Shown: positions 53,430-62,985 of the stretch, in pieces
Layout: each line of letters begins with the position of its first letter
Position numbering within the stretch: position 1 is the first letter of the stretch
Position numbers and translations under genes: made by a program
Notes under the pieces: model-generated
What the model saw: the letters and a program-made list of their open reading frames with translations, nothing else
The model's database searches: none
What the model was told of the DNA's origin: nothing
Assembly: GCF_000182745.2 (NCBI RefSeq)
Contig: NC_016027.1
Span: 933,001 to 997,000, forward strand
Origin: Komagataeibacter medellinensis NBRC 3288
GTDB taxonomy: Bacteria > Pseudomonadota > Alphaproteobacteria > Acetobacterales > Acetobacteraceae
Direction of reading: 5' to 3'
Length of the DNA: 64,000 nt

Positions 53430-54029
53430 GTGGAGCTGGATCACCAGCAACTCTGCCCTGATTTTTTGACCAAACGATCATCTGTGAACGGCGCGACCCG
53501 ATCACCCCGCCCTGTCCCGATTCGGTGGCACTGGTCAAAGCCGCCCACCATGGGCGCAATTCTTGATCTGCTGGAACAGACGGGCATGCGGGAAAACGAA
53601 GCTATCAGCCTAACGGTTGACAATGTGGACCATGAAGCTGCTCCGTACCAAGACAAGCCTGCCCCGCATGATCGCATGGGTCACACCAGACAGAGGATGC
53701 CACGGCATTACTGGAGCAGGCGCCCCGTACCGGCTTCCTGTTCCTCAACCTTGGCGGCAATCCCTACCGCAACGCAGCCTCGAATTACGGGCAGATCATG
53801 CGCCGGGTGGCCGCACGGTGTGAAGCCGTGGGCATTCCGTTTGCCCGCTTTCGCATCCACGACCTTCGCCATCCGGTGGCTCAAGGCCGGTGGGGACATC
53901 TACCGGCTGAGCCGCCATCTGGGCCACACATCGGTCAAGACGACCGAGAGCTACCTGTCCGCCCTGACGGCGGATGAACTGGACCATGTGCTGCATGTCG
54001 GCACAAAAGTCGGCACAGAAGCCCCATGA
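53430..54029 (+). pseudogene. Frameshifted tyrosine recombinase (phage integrase) remnant
   Basis: Integrase pieces are spread over frames. GAILDLLEQTGMRENEAISLTVDNVDHE, with the first catalytic Arg region, is in one frame. FLFLNLGGNPYRNAASNYG to FARFRIHDLRH, with the His-x-x-Arg box, is in a second. KAGGDIYRLSRHLGHTSVKTTESYLS, with the last His and the catalytic Tyr, is again in the first. At least two frameshifts are therefore needed, and the N-terminal domain is missing. It ends 68 bases before tRNA-Ser and marks the edge of an old integrated element. Confidence 0.8.
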
Positions 54030-54096: not shown

Positions 54097-54187
<91 letters not shown>

Positions 54188-54245
54188 TCATTCCAGAAAT
54201 TCCTATAAAAGATTGTTTGAACAACAAATCATTGATAAAAAATAA

Positions 54246-54321
54246 GAAAAGTTCTTGGGTGTCGCCTTTTTTTAAAAGGTAGCGTCTTGTGGAGCTTTTT
54301 AGAAAAATTCACCAACAACTT
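54246..54321 (-). repeat. Dispersed two-hairpin repeat, copy 3 (inverted)
   Basis: Read on the minus strand this segment has the same order as copies 1 and 2: GGTGAATTTTTCTAAAAAGC, then AGACGCTACC, then AAAAAAAGGCGACACCCAAG. It is more diverged than the others. It sits just past the stop of the pglX-like gene, in the 250-base gap after tRNA-Ser. Confidence 0.65.
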
Positions 54322-54436
54322 TTATAATTTCAGGATATTATTGAGCCTGACTTTCCAAATAGCCTATAAGGTATGGAAGTGGTTGACGTTTTCACATCAC
54401 TTCTACTGTCACCCCAATGTCCGTCGCGGAATACAC

Positions 54437-57400
54437 TCAGCCATCTGGCGCTTCCAGTCCTTTGATCGGTTTCAGCGCGCCTGCAAATAGAGGGTAGTTG
54501 CGCCTTACCCCATCATCCAGATCAATGGCGATCTTCTGCTGCGCCATCGGAACAACCACCTCCCTTACCCATCGGGTCAGTTCTTCAATCTGCCTGTCCA
54601 CCACGCCAACGGCTTTCTGTATCCGGGCACGCTTGCTGTATGTGGCAGTCGGGTTATCGACCAACCTTTCCAGCAGACCACGTTCAGCGTCCAGCCTGAT
54701 CATGAATTCGTGCACGTACCGGTCCAGCATGACCGATACGGTGTCAGGCCGGTAGCGATGCATGTAGATCAGTGCATTGAAGCTGCCTCCGGGGCTGGAA
54801 AACATCCAGTAAATCGGGCGCTTCCTGTAACGACAAACATGATAGTCGTAGAAATCCCTGATGAACCAGTTGCGCAGGTCCTTGCCCAGCGCTTTTTCAA
54901 TAAATGCAAGGTTTTCGTGAAAACCCGCCGCGCCAAAGGTCACGCGCAGGAAATCATGGGCATAGGTCACGATATCACTGGCAAACCAGTTGCGATCCAT
55001 TACGGGAATGACATTGTCGCGGTCGGGGACAAAACGGGGTTCTGGCACGCGCGCCAGGTACGCATCCATTCCTTCCCCCTGACTGGCAAGGATCAGGCCG
55101 GGCACATCAGGGCTATACCGGCCAAACATGCAGCCCACGGCATAATGGAGAAGTTCGGCCACGGTATCATACAGCAGAAGCCTCTCCCGCTCCACCATAC
55201 GTACCTTGCCACCATAGCGATAGGCCGGGTTGCAGGTCAGCGTAATGTCCTCAACCGGCACTTCGGGGGCCACTTCGCCATGCAGGCCATAGGCGTTGAT
55301 GAACAGACGGTTATTCTCCTGCTCCAGTTGCTGCATCCTGTCCGTCATACCCTGCCAGCACGAGCGCAGTCGGTCATAACTACCCTGCACCGACCCCGCT
55401 CTGTGCGCGGGCGAGAGCAGTGGTAGTATGGTAAAATCCCAGGAGGTTTCGCTGGCATCCCAATCTGATTTTCCGATTTCCACGGCAGCACGGACCGTTC
55501 GGTCAATCGCATCAACTGCCAATGTGTCAGGCAGGGGAATTGCCGCCACGTTGTTGACCTGAAAATTCAGGGTCGGGTTCATGGCCTTCAGGAAAAGCCG
55601 GGCAGTTCTTGCGCACAATGCGCCCGTATAAATTGGCAGATGCGCAGGCGCATCAGGGAACAGCGAGCAGCCTGCCATATCAAAAATAAAGCCTTGCGGC
55701 TGCTGACGTACGCCAAAATAGGAAGATGATAGGAACGACCAACTTACCGATGGGCTGAAATAGCGATTCCTTGCCCGCGGATATGCCCGCCCGGATGCGA
55801 GGATATCACGCCCCCCCGCTTCCCAGTTTACGACATGCTCCGCATTACCATACCATTTCCTGAATGCGCCGCCCTTGGCGTATGGGAACCACTTCTGTCC
55901 AGACAGAATGGCCTGTTCAGGCGATGCGGCATGAGGCAGGAAACGTTCGCGGCTGATCTCATGCCATTTCCTGACGAACCGCGCGTTTCTACCCGTCGTC
56001 ATTCCACACAGGACTGCTGCCGTATCCCCTATCAGCGGAAAGCGGGAGAAGCAGCGCCGGAAATCCTCGGACAGCCAGTATGCGATCGGACTGCCCGGGA
56101 TTTTTCTGAAATCCTCCGCCGATGCACGATACACCCAGGAGCACGCGCCGTTCTCGATAGCCATGCGCAATCGGGTTCGTTTTTCAAACTCCGAACCGCC
56201 ATCGACAAGGCGGATGAAGGTGCCTTCAAGGTTTACGCCACGGACTTTCCCGATCACGAATGCCGTGGTGGAGACTACCGCACCACCAATATTGTCAAAC
56301 GCCCGCTCTCCCAGATGGGCCATGGACAGGATCACGGAATTCGCAAATAACCTGTCCCGTAGCTTTTCATATGATGACAGGAACATCCATGACTGCATGT
56401 TGATCATGGCCATCAGTCCATGTTCGACACACAGCCCAAGTGCGCGTTCCATGAACACGGCAAACAGATCGGACCGGCTATCTGGGTAGTGCGCCTTGAC
56501 GAAAGCGCCCAGTGTTTCGTTCATCCCCTTCCCGCCCATATAAGGCGGGTTAGCCACCACAACATGATAATGCGGCGACAGGACCTGAACCATACGCAGC
56601 ACAGTCATGACACGGACCTGCAGGTCATTGCGCACCGGGTTGCCGCCACAATCCCATGCCGCCACCACCTGCTGCACCCTGCCCACGTTGCACAGTTCCG
56701 GCACGACCAGCGAGCCGAAATTCTTTGCCTGCCCGAACTGCGCCAGCGTCCCGCGCAGCGCGTCAGTAAACAGGTCGCGCCCGACCATGGTGGCAATATC
56801 GTGCATCTCGGCCGGACTGAAGGTCACGTCCTGCAAAACGACAATATCGGGTTTTACCTTCATGTGCATGAAACGCTGCCGCCCAAGCCGTGTTGCCGCC
56901 TTCATCGACAGGGCAAACATCGCCAAAGCGCCAGCACGCCCGTCAATTTCGATTCCGGTCAGGTTATGCGTCAGGATCAGCGCCGGGATGGCCGTGGCTT
57001 CATACCCCGCTTCCTCATAAATTGCATGGAGCAGGTCAAACGCATAGGTCAGCATGTGGCCCGCGCCACAGGCTGGATCACACAGGCGTATCTGCTCGGG
57101 CCGCTCAATGCGCGGGAAAGGAATCCGGGGGCCATCGGGTGCGATGTAATATGCCATCCGCGTGGCCAGTTGCGCGTGCGGGTGATTGAGCATCCACAAC
57201 CGTCCCAGCGCATTTTCTACAAGGTAGCGTACAATCCAGCGCGGCGTGAACAGTTGCGTTGCAGCGGGAATATCCTGCGCCGTGATCCTGATATTCCGTT
57301 TCAGCCCCGCAAAGACCTGGTCTTTCTTTTCCCTGATATAAAACTGATAGAGCCAGCCAATGATCTCGACATCCTGACACGCCTCTTCCGTCATGACCGC

Positions 57401-57949
57401 ACGCAGGCGGCCGAGAATGCTGTCAGGTAACAGCAGGTCATCGGGCATCAACAAATCAGTATAGTCATCTGCCCGGTTGGGGTCGTGTGCAGATGCAAAC
57501 AGATAAGGCATCAGGGCATGCCACTGCGTGCAGGCATGGATCAGTAACCGCCGATATGCCTCTGCCCGCCCGTCATGGGGGGATTGGGTGCCGTTCAGAT
57601 ATCGGGCAATGTCAGGACAGGTGGCATCCGGCAAGTGACCGGCCATGGCCTGTTCCAGAATTTCTGGCCAGATGCCACCATCAGCGGGGGATACCACACG
57701 GGGGTGGGTCAGCCCCGTTACATCCATGAAACGCAGTGCGGTAAAACGGTTGAACCACGTGCACGCCACCTGCCCGACGACCTGCCTGCGGTCTTTCGTC
57801 ACAGCGGCCTCCAGCCGGGCAATCGCGCCAGGATGGTCACGCCGGGCCGTAGCCCCTTCGGCCAGCACCCTGTCCAACCGAACAGCCACCTGGTCAATCA
57901 GCACAATGCGCGCAGCATAGGCAAATCTCTGCAGCGCACTGGTATCCAT
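54437..57949 (-). CDS. pglX: BREX-type adenine DNA methyltransferase PglX (solitary)
   Basis: This protein resembles BREX PglX/BrxX, the N6-adenine methyltransferase that marks host DNA in BREX phage defence. It is ~1170 aa, full length for the family. ATG 57949 (MDTSALQRFAYAARIVLIDQ) was chosen because family members start this way; the frame is open to 58000. Counting from 57949, QLFTPRWIVRYLVENALGRLW (near 232) precedes the SAM motif DPACGAGH at about 291-298 and the catalytic NPPYMGG at about 467-473. A long C-terminal specificity region follows. No brxA, brxB, brxC, pglZ or brxL lies within the window. It starts 84 bases after the bcsAB stop on the same strand, near a tRNA/integrase scar. 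Confidence 0.85.
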   Translation of the reverse strand: MDTSALQRFAYAARIVLIDQVAVRLDRVLAEGATARRDHPGAIARLEAAVTKDRRQVVGQVACTWFNRFTALRFMDVTGLTHPRVVSPADGGIWPEILEQAMAGHLPDATCPDIARYLNGTQSPHDGRAEAYRRLLIHACTQWHALMPYLFASAHDPNRADDYTDLLMPDDLLLPDSILGRLRAVMTEEACQDVEIIGWLYQFYIREKKDQVFAGLKRNIRITAQDIPAATQLFTPRWIVRYLVENALGRLWMLNHPHAQLATRMAYYIAPDGPRIPFPRIERPEQIRLCDPACGAGHMLTYAFDLLHAIYEEAGYEATAIPALILTHNLTGIEIDGRAGALAMFALSMKAATRLGRQRFMHMKVKPDIVVLQDVTFSPAEMHDIATMVGRDLFTDALRGTLAQFGQAKNFGSLVVPELCNVGRVQQVVAAWDCGGNPVRNDLQVRVMTVLRMVQVLSPHYHVVVANPPYMGGKGMNETLGAFVKAHYPDSRSDLFAVFMERALGLCVEHGLMAMINMQSWMFLSSYEKLRDRLFANSVILSMAHLGERAFDNIGGAVVSTTAFVIGKVRGVNLEGTFIRLVDGGSEFEKRTRLRMAIENGACSWVYRASAEDFRKIPGSPIAYWLSEDFRRCFSRFPLIGDTAAVLCGMTTGRNARFVRKWHEISRERFLPHAASPEQAILSGQKWFPYAKGGAFRKWYGNAEHVVNWEAGGRDILASGRAYPRARNRYFSPSVSWSFLSSSYFGVRQQPQGFIFDMAGCSLFPDAPAHLPIYTGALCARTARLFLKAMNPTLNFQVNNVAAIPLPDTLAVDAIDRTVRAAVEIGKSDWDASETSWDFTILPLLSPAHRAGSVQGSYDRLRSCWQGMTDRMQQLEQENNRLFINAYGLHGEVAPEVPVEDITLTCNPAYRYGGKVRMVERERLLLYDTVAELLHYAVGCMFGRYSPDVPGLILASQGEGMDAYLARVPEPRFVPDRDNVIPVMDRNWFASDIVTYAHDFLRVTFGAAGFHENLAFIEKALGKDLRNWFIRDFYDYHVCRYRKRPIYWMFSSPGGSFNALIYMHRYRPDTVSVMLDRYVHEFMIRLDAERGLLERLVDNPTATYSKRARIQKAVGVVDRQIEELTRWVREVVVPMAQQKIAIDLDDGVRRNYPLFAGALKPIKGLEAPDG

Positions 57950-58033
57950 CAGGTCATCACTTTCCCGCCCGCATCGTGCCCGGCCGGCAGGGTCTGTCAT
58001 CTGATCATGGTACGGGACCTGTGCCTGCGGGGG

Positions 58034-61000
58034 TCAGTGCTTTTCCTCCCGCGCCGTTTCCTCATCCAGCTTCTCCTGGGCCTTTACACGGCGGTGCGCA
58101 CGCGCACGCAGCCATAGCCACGCACCGGTACCCATCATGGCGGCTCCTATGACACCCAGGATGTACATCACCAACGGATGCCGCGACAGGAACCAATCCA
58201 GCCACATCCACCATGGCAGGTGCCCCACGGTATAGGTGGGTGCGGTACGATAGGTGGTAAAACGCTCGCCATTCTTGATTACAAGATCGCCCTGTATGGT
58301 GGGCAGCACCTTGGTATCATGCAGGCTGGCGACCAGTTCGTGAATGCGACCCCCATTCTCCCCCAGCAAGGCCAGTACGGAACGGTGGTTTGCATAAGGG
58401 GACTGGCTTCCGATCATCAGCGCCGCGTTATGCACCGGCGCATCCAGGTTGGCGCTTACACCATTACGCAGGCCACCACCGTCACGATCCTGAAATATGT
58501 ACCAGATCCCCTGCAGGCCCGTCTCCTGCCCAACACGGATATGTCCGTCGTCAATCTGGTAAGCCGAGCGCGAAAGCAGGGCGGCCCCCGCCCCCAATTG
58601 TCCCACTGGTGCCAGCAGGATCACGTCGCCCTCCGGCGGGGCATGGGCAATGTCTTCCGTCGTGGCAAAATGGATACCTGAGACCGGATACCATGTAACC
58701 GACCCGAAAAAACCCATGAGATCAAGATAGGCCCCGATTGTATCGGTATCGGGGGTGGGCGGCAGTACAATCGTCGTCTCCCCCAGATCCGCCATACGGG
58801 AGAATGGAAAACCGATTTCAGCAAAATAGGACAGGTTGGGCAGTTCGGTAAAATGCACCCCACGACGGAAATCCAGCACGGAATCGGAATCGATTTCCAG
58901 ATGCAGGGAACTGGGCGTGCGGCGGCACGCACCGCGGTCAACAGGCCGGGTATCGAACTGGAACTGCAACTCGTTCTGTCCGAACAGGAGCCATGGCGGG
59001 ATGGCCGTGACATGACCAACCGCGCCCGCATGCTGGGTTACCATCCGTTCGGACCAGGTGTGCCACAGGCTGTTGTTCAGCAGGGAATAGCTCTGGACAT
59101 AAGTATTGTTGACACTGACATCAAGACGCGAGGCCGCGATATCCACGACCGGGTTGCCCGGCGCTCTTACCCACAGGTCCATAAGGAATGGCAGCCTGTG
59201 CCATGTGTACAGGTCCGGTGCCAGATGAAACGGCAGGTGCAGCGTATCGGACGCGAACCCGCCCGCCTGCAGGTCCCCTGCCGTGACCAGTTCACCAAAG
59301 CGGACGGGGCGATCCGTCGGAATGAAGGAAGGCGCATCATAGGGCACGCGCGGGCGCAGGCTCACATCCTCCACCTTCATGCTGGACAGATCACCCAACG
59401 TATCGGAAGAAAAAACCAGCCTGCGGGCCGCGACTTCCACCTCGGCCGGGTTGCGACCGGTTACTACCAGGATGGTACCCCACTTGTCGTTCGGGTTCGC
59501 AATCTCGGACAAGGTGGGGCCTGATGGCTGGGTGCCGTGATCATCCAGCGCAAGCCCGGTTCCAATCTCGATCGCATTGCCCGTATCGGGAAGCGTGCGC
59601 GAAACCGGAAAGGTGAGCTGCCGCGTATCGGCCAGCCTGCCAAACCAGGAGGCCACAAGCCCCCCCGCCCTCATGATCTCGGGCACCATCGCACTGCCAG
59701 GCAGCACCACGGGCACCCGCATCGCAACCTTCAGGTTGGGATCGAAAAAGGGCGTGGGTAGCCTGCTCAGGCTCCGTACTGGTTCAATGCGGGCTGTGGT
59801 CAAGGTTATGGTGGACTGGTCAGATATCTGCGCCCACATTACATCATTATACAGGTCGTTGCAGTCGCGCCTGTATTCACCGGCAAAGCGGAAGTTGAGC
59901 TTGCTGTCTCCAGTAAAATAAAGGGGGTCGATGGTAAATTCCAGCGGTCCGAACGTGGGATGGGCCGGGTCTATGCGGATCGTGCCCACATACTGCTCGT
60001 TAAGCGTGACAGTAATGGCCGTGGCTTCAGGCAGGAGCGAGGGCGAAATCGCCCCAGCCAGACTCAGCGTGGCATGAGTGACTACGCGATTGGCCGGCAC
60101 GACCACATCCACACCCTGCAACGGAGAAAAGCCGCGCAACGTAAGCGGCCCCGGATAAGGGTTGAGGTCACGGAACGCGATGGTGCGCGTAATTTCGGTA
60201 TCGGCCACCCGGTCGGCCAGTTTCTGGTCCAGGATATCGGTGGCGGGCGGAATGTCCCCGCTATTCGTATCCCCCAGCGGGGTCAGATGCGAAACGCCGG
60301 TATGGCTGTAACCAGCGGGCATCTGCGCCCGCGCTGGAAAGACCGCCAGCATTGCCCCCACCACCAGCATGACGAGGCCAGTCCCGACCCTGCGGGGCAC
60401 GGGTGGAATGACCAGGCTTTTCTTTTCCAGCGTTTCTTCCTCGTGCACGCTTTCGCCACTTTCTTCCTGCCCCTTTGACGGGAGGCTCCACAGATAAGGC
60501 GGCGAAAACAGGCCACCTATACTTTTAATTACCTGATATATACTGTTCAATGGCCGGTCATTCTTGAAATCCGACCAGTTATTCCAGGCATCGCTGCGCC
60601 CAAATACCAGGCTGACGACCTCCCGTTCCTCTTCCATGGTATCAAGCTTCCATTGCAGGTGCAGCCATGAACCGCGCTGCTGTCCAAGAATGCGCGCGGG
60701 CACCGCCACCTCAATCCCGTCATCGGGCTTGCTGTAGCGCAGGATGATATCCACCGGGGTCTCGACCTGTTCTGGCAGGTGCAGATTGATGCCCGCACCG
60801 CCAAGCGAAATATCGGTGGTATGGGCCTGGAACACCCTGCCATCCTCAAAGCACACCTCAACGGGCAACCGGACCCGGACGCGGGGCTTGTGGCGGATCT
60901 GCCGCGTCTCGCGCCCGACAGCAATGGATGCCAGCACCACGATCAGACTTATGGCAATCCACACCGTATTGAGCGCAAAGGACTGGAACGCCAGTTTCTG

Positions 61001-62605
61001 GTGATACTGGAAAACCATGCCCCACAAACCGCGCACCAGCCCCCCGAACAGGACCAGGGCCATGATTGCATTGGGGTAGACGGCGCTGAAATCAAAATAA
61101 CCCCGCGCCAGCAATCCGCCCTTGTCGGTCACGTTGAACTTGCCCTTGTGCGGCTGGAGCAGGGTGACGATGGTGATGCGGATAAGAAACAGCGCCAGCG
61201 ATGTCTCGTAGATCTCGCTCCAGAAGGAATAGCGCCACCGCCCCTCAATGCGCGAGAGGGTCATGATGGAATGGAAGATGTGGGGCAGCGCATAGACCAT
61301 GATGGCGAAGGGCGAGGCCGCGATGATGTTCTGCCCGAAAAACAGAAACCCCAACGGCGAGACAAGAAAGGTCACGCGCGGGATGGCGAACAGGAAATGC
61401 GACATGGCCGACAGGTAGCACAGCCGCTGCTCCCAGCGCAGCCCGCGCCCCAGCAACGGGTTGTCCACCCGCATGATCTGCAACATACCACGTGCCCAGC
61501 GCACGCGCTGGCCGATATGCAGGATCAGCCGTTCGGTCGCAAGACCTGCTGCCAGCGGCTGGCACAGATAGGCAGTGCCCCAGCCCTTGCGCTGCATCTT
61601 GAGCGCGGTATGCGCATCTTCCGTAACCGTTTCGGTCGCAAAGCCGCCAACGCTGAGCAGGGCGGAGCGGCGGATGGCGGCACACGAACCGCAGAAGAAG
61701 GTTGCATCCCAGAAATCATTCCCATCCTGCACCAGGCCATAGAACATGTTGCCCTCAGGCGGTACATCGTAGCCTGCGGCCAGATTGCGCTGGAACGGAT
61801 CGGGGGAATAGAAATGGTGGGGTGTCTGCAACAAGGCCAACTTGGGATCGGCCCATAACCAGCCAATGGTCTTGATCAGAAAGGAGCGCGTGGGCACATG
61901 GTCACAGTCAAAGATGACCACGAACTCCCCCTTGGTAATCCGCATGGCATGGTTGAGGTTACCCGCCTTCGCGTGATTGTTTTCATCGCGGATGATGTAG
62001 CCGGCACCGGATTCGACCGCAAAGTCCCGGAAGGCCTTCCGTCGCCCATCATCAAGGATATAGACATTGAGCTTGTCAGCCGGCCAGTGCAGGTCCATCG
62101 CGCCGAGCACGGTTGAGCGGACCAGTTCCAGATCCTCGTTGTAGGAGGGCACATACACATCGACAACCGGCCAGTCATCGGGGTTGTCGGGCAGGCAGTG
62201 CGGCTTGCGGCCCAGCGGCCATGACATCTGGAAATAGCTCAGGCACAGGGTGGAGAGCGCATAACCTTCCGCTGCAAGCAGGGCAAGCGACATGGCGACC
62301 TGCAGCGGGCCATGGAACTCCACCGTGCGGCCCAGCCGCCATATCAGGTAGCGAAAAGAGACAAAGAGCGACAGCATCATGAGGATGCAGGTGACATGCC
62401 GCCCCGGCCTGCGGTTGAGGATGAAGAAAAGCGTGACAGTACCGATCGAGATATAGGCCTGCTCGCCCGGTGCAAGGGTAATGTTGCCCACCGACAGGCA
62501 GAGTATGGCCCCCCCGATCATCAGCAGCGCGATAAGCCAGCCCTGCCGCCGCGGCGTGGTATCAAGCGCATTCCCGCCCCACTTCAGCCACAATTCCCTG
62601 AGCAT
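58034..62605 (-). CDS. bcsAB: Cellulose synthase, fused catalytic and BcsB subunits
   Basis: This membrane GT2 enzyme polymerises UDP-glucose into beta-1,4-glucan, and the BcsB half guides the chain in the periplasm. Counting from ATG 62605, the GT2 motifs are DDG (185-187), DCDH (233-236), TED (328-330) and QRVRW (366-370). A c-di-GMP-binding PilZ domain lies at about 567-668 (RHKPR, DISLGG). A signal-like segment ending ARAQ near residue 765 starts the BcsB half, which ends in a membrane helix. The frame opens at 62671, but MLRELWLKWG gives a normal N-terminus. No bcsC, bcsD, bcsZ or bcsH is adjacent, so this is a lone copy of the acsAB type. Confidence 0.93.
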   Translation of the reverse strand: MLRELWLKWGGNALDTTPRRQGWLIALLMIGGAILCLSVGNITLAPGEQAYISIGTVTLFFILNRRPGRHVTCILMMLSLFVSFRYLIWRLGRTVEFHGPLQVAMSLALLAAEGYALSTLCLSYFQMSWPLGRKPHCLPDNPDDWPVVDVYVPSYNEDLELVRSTVLGAMDLHWPADKLNVYILDDGRRKAFRDFAVESGAGYIIRDENNHAKAGNLNHAMRITKGEFVVIFDCDHVPTRSFLIKTIGWLWADPKLALLQTPHHFYSPDPFQRNLAAGYDVPPEGNMFYGLVQDGNDFWDATFFCGSCAAIRRSALLSVGGFATETVTEDAHTALKMQRKGWGTAYLCQPLAAGLATERLILHIGQRVRWARGMLQIMRVDNPLLGRGLRWEQRLCYLSAMSHFLFAIPRVTFLVSPLGFLFFGQNIIAASPFAIMVYALPHIFHSIMTLSRIEGRWRYSFWSEIYETSLALFLIRITIVTLLQPHKGKFNVTDKGGLLARGYFDFSAVYPNAIMALVLFGGLVRGLWGMVFQYHQKLAFQSFALNTVWIAISLIVVLASIAVGRETRQIRHKPRVRVRLPVEVCFEDGRVFQAHTTDISLGGAGINLHLPEQVETPVDIILRYSKPDDGIEVAVPARILGQQRGSWLHLQWKLDTMEEEREVVSLVFGRSDAWNNWSDFKNDRPLNSIYQVIKSIGGLFSPPYLWSLPSKGQEESGESVHEEETLEKKSLVIPPVPRRVGTGLVMLVVGAMLAVFPARAQMPAGYSHTGVSHLTPLGDTNSGDIPPATDILDQKLADRVADTEITRTIAFRDLNPYPGPLTLRGFSPLQGVDVVVPANRVVTHATLSLAGAISPSLLPEATAITVTLNEQYVGTIRIDPAHPTFGPLEFTIDPLYFTGDSKLNFRFAGEYRRDCNDLYNDVMWAQISDQSTITLTTARIEPVRSLSRLPTPFFDPNLKVAMRVPVVLPGSAMVPEIMRAGGLVASWFGRLADTRQLTFPVSRTLPDTGNAIEIGTGLALDDHGTQPSGPTLSEIANPNDKWGTILVVTGRNPAEVEVAARRLVFSSDTLGDLSSMKVEDVSLRPRVPYDAPSFIPTDRPVRFGELVTAGDLQAGGFASDTLHLPFHLAPDLYTWHRLPFLMDLWVRAPGNPVVDIAASRLDVSVNNTYVQSYSLLNNSLWHTWSERMVTQHAGAVGHVTAIPPWLLFGQNELQFQFDTRPVDRGACRRTPSSLHLEIDSDSVLDFRRGVHFTELPNLSYFAEIGFPFSRMADLGETTIVLPPTPDTDTIGAYLDLMGFFGSVTWYPVSGIHFATTEDIAHAPPEGDVILLAPVGQLGAGAALLSRSAYQIDDGHIRVGQETGLQGIWYIFQDRDGGGLRNGVSANLDAPVHNAALMIGSQSPYANHRSVLALLGENGGRIHELVASLHDTKVLPTIQGDLVIKNGERFTTYRTAPTYTVGHLPWWMWLDWFLSRHPLVMYILGVIGAAMMGTGAWLWLRARAHRRVKAQEKLDEETAREEKH

Positions 62606-62985
62606 TTTTCTACAACCAGACTGACCTGAATCAAAACCCGTCAATACGTACAGGCATACAGGCAGTGACACCAGCGGCTTTGTACCGTGGGGCCTGCCGC
62701 ATGGATGGTTTTTCGTTCCCTATCATGAACGGTATGACCGAACGCCCTTTATCCCCCTTGCCTTCCTGATGGATGCCGACACTAGATGAGCGAATGCTCC
62801 AACCGCAAGGCATTATCAGGCGGGTCGATCCATTTTCAGACCGGGGCGCAAAAAGGGGTATCCACATACCCTTTATCGCCCTTTTACCACGGCGGAATAT
62901 GCAGCAGATAAGACCCCTCCCCATGTAGCGGACCGGTGTCGCAAGAGATGCAGGCTAAACCGCGCACCATGCCCAGGAAAACACA
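62606..62985. other. Region upstream of bcsAB
   Basis: About 380 bases between bcsAB and the helicase terminator hold no gene I can support. The bcsAB promoter should lie here on the minus strand. I see no convincing -35/-10 pair and no strong ribosome binding site before ATG 62605. Confidence 0.4.

Follow-up and report, generated by a model that had tools for sequence, protein, structure and literature searches.

The 64,000-nucleotide stretch of Komagataeibacter medellinensis NBRC 3288 that was analysed here as a whole (the window) carries on its minus strand a gene for a PglX-like methyltransferase, located directly behind the gene of a stand-alone cellulose synthase. PglX is a subunit of the BREX defence machinery, and the locus raises the question of whether this copy still belongs to a BREX system and, if it does not, in what capacity it has been kept. 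The features referred to below are listed here with their positions in the window.

54097..54186, plus strand: tRNA-Ser (tga)
54187..54436, no strand: AT-rich spacer (35.6% GC) separating tRNA-Ser from the pglX stop
54437..57949, minus strand: lone pglX (brxX), adenine-specific DNA methyltransferase of BREX type 1, with 1170 aa when read from the start that its homologues share
54437..55516, minus strand: C-terminal domain (CTD), P0001 residues 829–1187; residue 1008 is Ser, aligned with E. coli D1012
55517..56080, minus strand: target-recognition domain (TRD), P0001 residues 641–828, under the strongest constraint of all domains in the lone clade
56531..56551, minus strand: NPPYMGG, catalytic motif IV, P0001 residues 484–490
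57056..57079, minus strand: DPACGAGH, SAM motif I, P0001 residues 308–315
57272..57949, minus strand: N-terminal domain (NTD), P0001 residues 18–243, approximate, mapped from E. coli BrxX
58034..62671 (or from 62605), minus strand: bcsAB, stand-alone fused cellulose synthase A-B, 1545 aa

The pglX product and its locus

The original prediction described an intact PglX-like ORF, and its product is indeed, by descent, a full-length member of the BREX type 1 PglX/BrxX family. It matches the BREX-1 PglX model NF033452 over its full length with 1261.6 bits (cut-off 500), scores 1134 bits with the PADLOC type IIG model, and matches BrxX/PglX in the PDB by sequence. Its predicted fold matches 9ewz, 8c45, 8q56, and 8zek over 1113–1127 residues; in the predicted model, the four-domain fold consisting of the NTD, the methyltransferase domain (MTD), the TRD, and the CTD appears complete, with the N terminus aligning with BrxX from residue 1. 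The domain limits of E. coli BrxX were taken from PMC11842806. Type IIG/IIL enzymes, such as MmeI and DrdV, contain a related methyltransferase and target-recognition core; however, Pfam finds only methyltransferase families and no nuclease domain in the pglX product, and the scores, the fold match, and the tree described below place it inside BREX type 1 PglX rather than with the type IIG enzymes that had been named as the alternative.

On the minus strand, bcsAB is followed by pglX, beyond which lies tRNA-Ser on the plus strand. The bcsAB stop and the homologue-shared pglX start (57949; an alternative longer start is at 58000) are separated by 84 bases on the same strand, and the G+C content of pglX is 57.2%, compared with 62.5% for the window. 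On the side of tRNA-Ser opposite to pglX, a degenerate integrase-like ORF of 199 aa (53430–54029, plus strand) just precedes the tRNA gene within a stretch (50.8–54.0 kb) that differs between species; the ORF and this variable stretch are probably an old integration site.

Only one of the 19 genus genomes, that of the source strain, has pglX placed beside bcsAB, and all eight orthologous bcsAB regions compared are without pglX. In G008, similarity resumes ~110 bases from tRNA-Ser, whereas in the source genome pglX is inserted there. In turn, the pglX genes of G006, G013, G015, G016, and G018, as well as the remnant in G005, belong to one region linked by common flanks, in which the lone gene adjoins either an aldolase gene or pnkp and a gene that we take to be hen1. 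Comparison of the sequences thus indicates, based on the bcsAB regions devoid of pglX, the low G+C content, the spacer, and the integrase-like ORF, that pglX was most likely inserted at the tRNA site and that its position behind bcsAB is most likely incidental. No direct or inverted repeat of at least 9 bases was found between the two ends of the pglX region, nor did a separate search find a direct repeat of at least 12 bases. A search of the bcsAB–pglX gap, which was without statistical power, found no terminator-like site on the pglX strand, and transcriptional read-through from bcsAB into pglX is plausible.

Nuclease-like genes are present at the other locus in some of the relatives. In two genomes, the lone pglX is immediately preceded, in the same orientation, by a PDDEXK_4-like gene that is absent from the other 17 of 19, and in G013 an HNH endonuclease gene (L104 13822-14631, plus strand) is found upstream of pglX on the opposite strand.

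L105 7755-8777 and L106 12653-13699, minus strand: PDDEXK_4-like genes of G016 and G018, Pfam match below cut-off

BREX partners and the lone lineage

The absence of BREX genes, originally noted for 50 to 64 kb of the window, extends to the whole genome, in which none of the four tested partners of pglX was matched. PglZ, BrxC, BrxB, and BrxL each gave no match in any of the 19 genus genomes, the source genome included, and by these four proteins no BREX cluster was found elsewhere in the latter. The search for PglZ is sensitive, since PglZ was matched in all 48 genomes from other taxa that together hold 49 related pglX loci (50 of 53 related loci entered this control, with L029 left out), as well as in all three other genomes of the same family that have a strong PglX. 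In this respect the lone pglX differs from BREX type 1 PglX/BrxX of E. coli HS and Salmonella (PDB 9ewz, 8c45); for a working subunit of such a system, PglZ, BrxC, BrxB, BrxL, and a complete CTD metal site are all missing. No nuclease family was found in the flanking ORFs selected for scanning between 45 and 64 kb, and among these ORFs pglX has, like a solitary methyltransferase, no linked restriction partner.

Matches to PglX were reported in 8 of the 19 genus genomes. The gene is intact in five, namely G000 (the source genome), G006, G013, G016, and G018, is broken by a single in-frame stop in G015, and is reduced to a C-terminal remnant in G005. The match in G014 was not counted as part of the lineage, being weak and local (E 1.2e-4, residues 470–548 only). 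The interruption, the remnant, and the failure to find pglX in 12 of 19 genomes indicate that the gene is dispensable. In a sample spanning the family, PglX matches at E 1e-30 or better occur in 8 of 397 genomes, and these comprise the five intact lone genomes and three that also have PglZ.

In a tree built from 36 of 57 ORFs and the source pglX, the six lone rows (the five intact genes and G015, entered by its 618-aa first part only) are monophyletic with support of 100/100, although the tree tool flagged an unusual residue make-up in these rows. The lone clade is nested among PglX of BREX-bearing genomes, with Brucella grignonensis (L005) as its nearest neighbour at modest support (92/88). 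The L005 cluster, the only one for which families were assigned gene by gene, consists of brxA, brxB, brxC, pglX, pglZ, and brxL. By parsimony, the partners were lost before the species with the other, common pglX locus separated, and the lone type 1 clade has so far been found only in this genus of acetic acid bacteria. Viral contigs scanned with the lone-clade alignment yielded no relative, and the 11 records with a match in the phage collection are all under 60% identity.

Constraint, target recognition, and the metal site

In the 10 pairs of the five intact lone genes, overall dN/dS is 0.22–0.30, with values of 0.09–0.20 for the TRD, 0.22–0.39 for the NTD, 0.20–0.32 for the MTD, and 0.26–0.39 for the CTD, so that the TRD has the lowest value of the four domains in every pair. 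None of these 3.4–3.5 kb genes contains a stop, whereas a neutral simulation run at about half the pairwise dS gave 11–31 stops on average, with each of the 300 runs per gene yielding 2 or more. BREX pairs with unsaturated dS have dN/dS of 0.05–0.24, and the values for the lone NTD and CTD lie above most of these. Since the values for neighbouring genes are lower (0.08–0.09 for pnkp, 0.08 for a 331-aa gene, 0.16 for PDDEXK, and 0.18 for the aldolase gene, with those for hen1 and bcsAB set aside on account of implausible frames or coordinates), pglX is under weaker constraint than these four neighbours.

The NTD/MTD-core and CTD/MTD-core branch-length ratios are 1.15 and 1.03 in the lone clade versus 1.00 and 1.02 in BREX. 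There is no clear difference between the two sets, and relaxed constraint on the NTD and CTD, the putative partner-binding domains, is thus not supported. Strong relaxation of these domains in the lone clade, considered on the basis of an NTD/MTD ratio of 1.02 versus 0.35, was rejected, as the gap nearly disappears when the second half of the MTD is left out; this half participates in target-recognition exchange in BREX. Taken together, the intact frames, the low dN/dS, and the fixed TRD point to retention of the lone pglX. The suggestion that the gene is a remnant of a defence island consequently holds for its origin, whereas its present state argues otherwise.

The specificity domain sets the lone clade apart from its BREX relatives. 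TRD identity is at least 0.6 in all 10 lone pairs (0.74–0.94) but in only 5 of 356 BREX pairs with a backbone identity of 0.55–0.90. One of five same-genus BREX pairs shares its TRD, these five being a selection from the same-genus pairs available. The TRD is common to the lone pglX genes at both loci. The TRD is thus exchanged in BREX, whereas a single TRD across the lone clade suggests fixed specificity. In an alignment of 45 BREX rows, from which seven partial or oddly fused rows, as well as G015, had been dropped, pairs with a common TRD also conserve it well, and part of the contrast between domains hence says merely that specificity is unchanged. The dN/dS values and the common TRD are together consistent with retention at fixed specificity, though pglX was not found in the greater part of the genus.

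The nearest TRD from a plasmid belongs to the PglX of a complete Acinetobacter BREX-1 system and is 64.5% like that of the source pglX, whereas the protein overall is about 39% alike.

L129 7048-10557, plus strand: Acinetobacter plasmid BREX-1 pglX, TRD 64.5% like the source TRD

Such likeness of the TRDs in otherwise divergent proteins suggests target-recognition exchange across classes, and it indicates that the specificity domain of the lone clade also circulates among BREX systems. A target motif derived by way of Acinetobacter was considered, as PglX of Acinetobacter NEB 394 is reported to recognize GTAGAT (PMC9122589), and was rejected; the NEB 394 TRD is only 42% like that of L129, and no motif is accordingly assigned to the source pglX.

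The CTD of E. coli BrxX binds a metal through D997, D999, D1012, Y1113, and a main-chain oxygen (PMC11842806). In the BREX alignment, all 44 readable rows have D997, D1012, and Y1113, and 43 of them have D999. The source pglX has Ser at the position of D1012 while retaining D997, D999, and Y1113; in G006, G013, G016, and G018, Val is found at the position of D997 and no residue is aligned with Y1113. As judged from the alignment, each of the five intact lone proteins is thus without at least one CTD metal ligand, through different changes. In motif I, GAG is present in all five lone proteins versus GSG in all 45 BREX rows (Ser to Ala). NPPY is kept in the five lone proteins and is intact in all 50 rows, with N, the first P, and Y checked.

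Possible roles of the lone PglX

The best reading of these data, to which we give an even chance, is that the lone pglX encodes a former BREX subunit that has persisted as a stand-alone N6-adenine DNA methyltransferase of fixed specificity. Its ancestral source would have been a complete alphaproteobacterial BREX-1 system, from which at least BrxB, BrxC, PglZ, and BrxL would have been lost while PglX was kept as the solitary enzyme. The lone PglX would have gained the ability to methylate alone, the simplest account of its retention, common TRD, and intact motifs. It would bind one fixed site, presumably the same across species and, by analogy with BREX, non-palindromic, and the adenine mark could then serve not in a defence machine but as an epigenetic signal specific to the lineage. 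In the source genome, the gene would have been inserted by tRNA-Ser, downstream of bcsAB, where it is probably transcribed by read-through. The original prediction had offered an epigenetic regulator of surface polysaccharide genes; of this, the broader notion of a methyltransferase acting alone survives as the best, if unproven, reading, whereas the polysaccharide role does not.

Methylation by the lone PglX is something we only infer, because E. coli BrxX alone was inactive in published work. That protein binds DNA and SAM by itself, yet methylates neither in vitro nor in vivo unless BrxB, BrxC, and BrxZ are present; the authors of that work speculate that it is restrained by its N- or C-terminal domain, and they point out that the Streptomyces PglX, which lacks those domains, is active by itself (PMC11842806). 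We can tentatively propose, with rather less confidence than for the reading above, that the lone type 1 methyltransferase escaped the complex and methylates without BrxB, BrxC, and PglZ, that the broken metal site contributes to this, and that the result is a genus-specific mark. A lone BrxX clade under selection with a broken metal site makes the idea that the NTD or CTD holds BrxX back directly testable. If the proposal is true, the clade offers naturally occurring, licensed variants of BrxX that could reveal what keeps BrxX inactive, and cellulose-producing bacteria would provide a case of a defence subunit that became a solitary epigenetic enzyme.

Dam and CcrM are solitary adenine methyltransferases, and the lone PglX is much larger than either. 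It is likewise much larger than CamA, and it differs from all three also in its BREX-specific N- and C-terminal domains and in being intact in only 5 of 19 genus genomes. Another parallel is HG5, a PglX-like m6A methyltransferase with the site CTGGAG that is persistent in Haloterrigena (PMC10609329); similarly persistent in one genus, it is, however, archaeal. No description of a lone type 1 PglX was found in the literature searched, including the available text of PMC11842806, PMC12707154, PMC12839542, PMC10609329, PMC12479173, PMC9122589, PMC6559206, and PMC10106347, and Komagataeibacter and BREX appear together in one paper of it, apparently only in passing. A large survey from 2026 anchors the canonical BREX set on BrxC, at least in its available text, and a lone PglX may for this reason fall outside its scope (PMC12839542).

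The main rival, which we consider unlikely, is that the gene is what is left of a lost BREX system, functionless and in decay, its frame being intact owing to recent loss or slow decay. The interruption in G015, the remnant in G005, and the patchy presence across the genus are in keeping with decay, as are an overall dN/dS above that of neighbouring genes and values for the NTD and CTD above most of those in BREX; the broken metal site could be a product of decay as well, and BrxX alone is inactive in E. coli (PMC11842806). However, five intact genes with zero stops where 11–31 would be expected on average, a loss of partners that is by parsimony older than the split of the locus-sharing species, and a TRD that evolves more slowly than the other domains in all 10 pairs speak against it.

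A partnership of the lone PglX with a non-BREX protein, for example a nuclease, in a restriction-modification-like or other defence module is doubtful. It would account for the PDDEXK_4-like gene upstream of pglX in G016 and G018 and for the HNH gene in G013, but the former is present in 2 of 19 genomes, not including the source genome, with a Pfam match below cut-off, and the flanking ORFs scanned in the source genome contain no nuclease. Furthermore, BREX specificity normally diversifies, whereas that of the lone clade does not.

We regard as improbable a site-specific DNA binder without catalysis, acting as a repressor or roadblock. Although E. coli BrxX alone binds its site without methylating it (PMC11842806) and the TRD is conserved in the lone clade, NPPY is kept in all five lone proteins, motif I is kept save for the change of Ser to Ala (5 of 5 lone versus 0 of 45 BREX rows), and dN/dS of the MTD stays at 0.20–0.32.

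Finally, the cellulose or surface polysaccharide link suggested by the original prediction, in the form of a dedicated regulator cotranscribed with bcsAB for that purpose, is hardly credible despite the common strand, the short gap with no terminator-like site on that strand, and the strong transcription reported for the stand-alone bcs4 operon of K. medellinensis (PMC6559206), if bcsAB is its equivalent, as the arrangement is confined to this one of the 19 genomes and the other lone pglX genes lie by aldolase or pnkp/hen1.

Elsewhere in the source genome, 8 kb of another contig (C4:1-8000, L132) are identical to an Acetobacter aceti plasmid and bear the mercury-resistance genes merA and merB.
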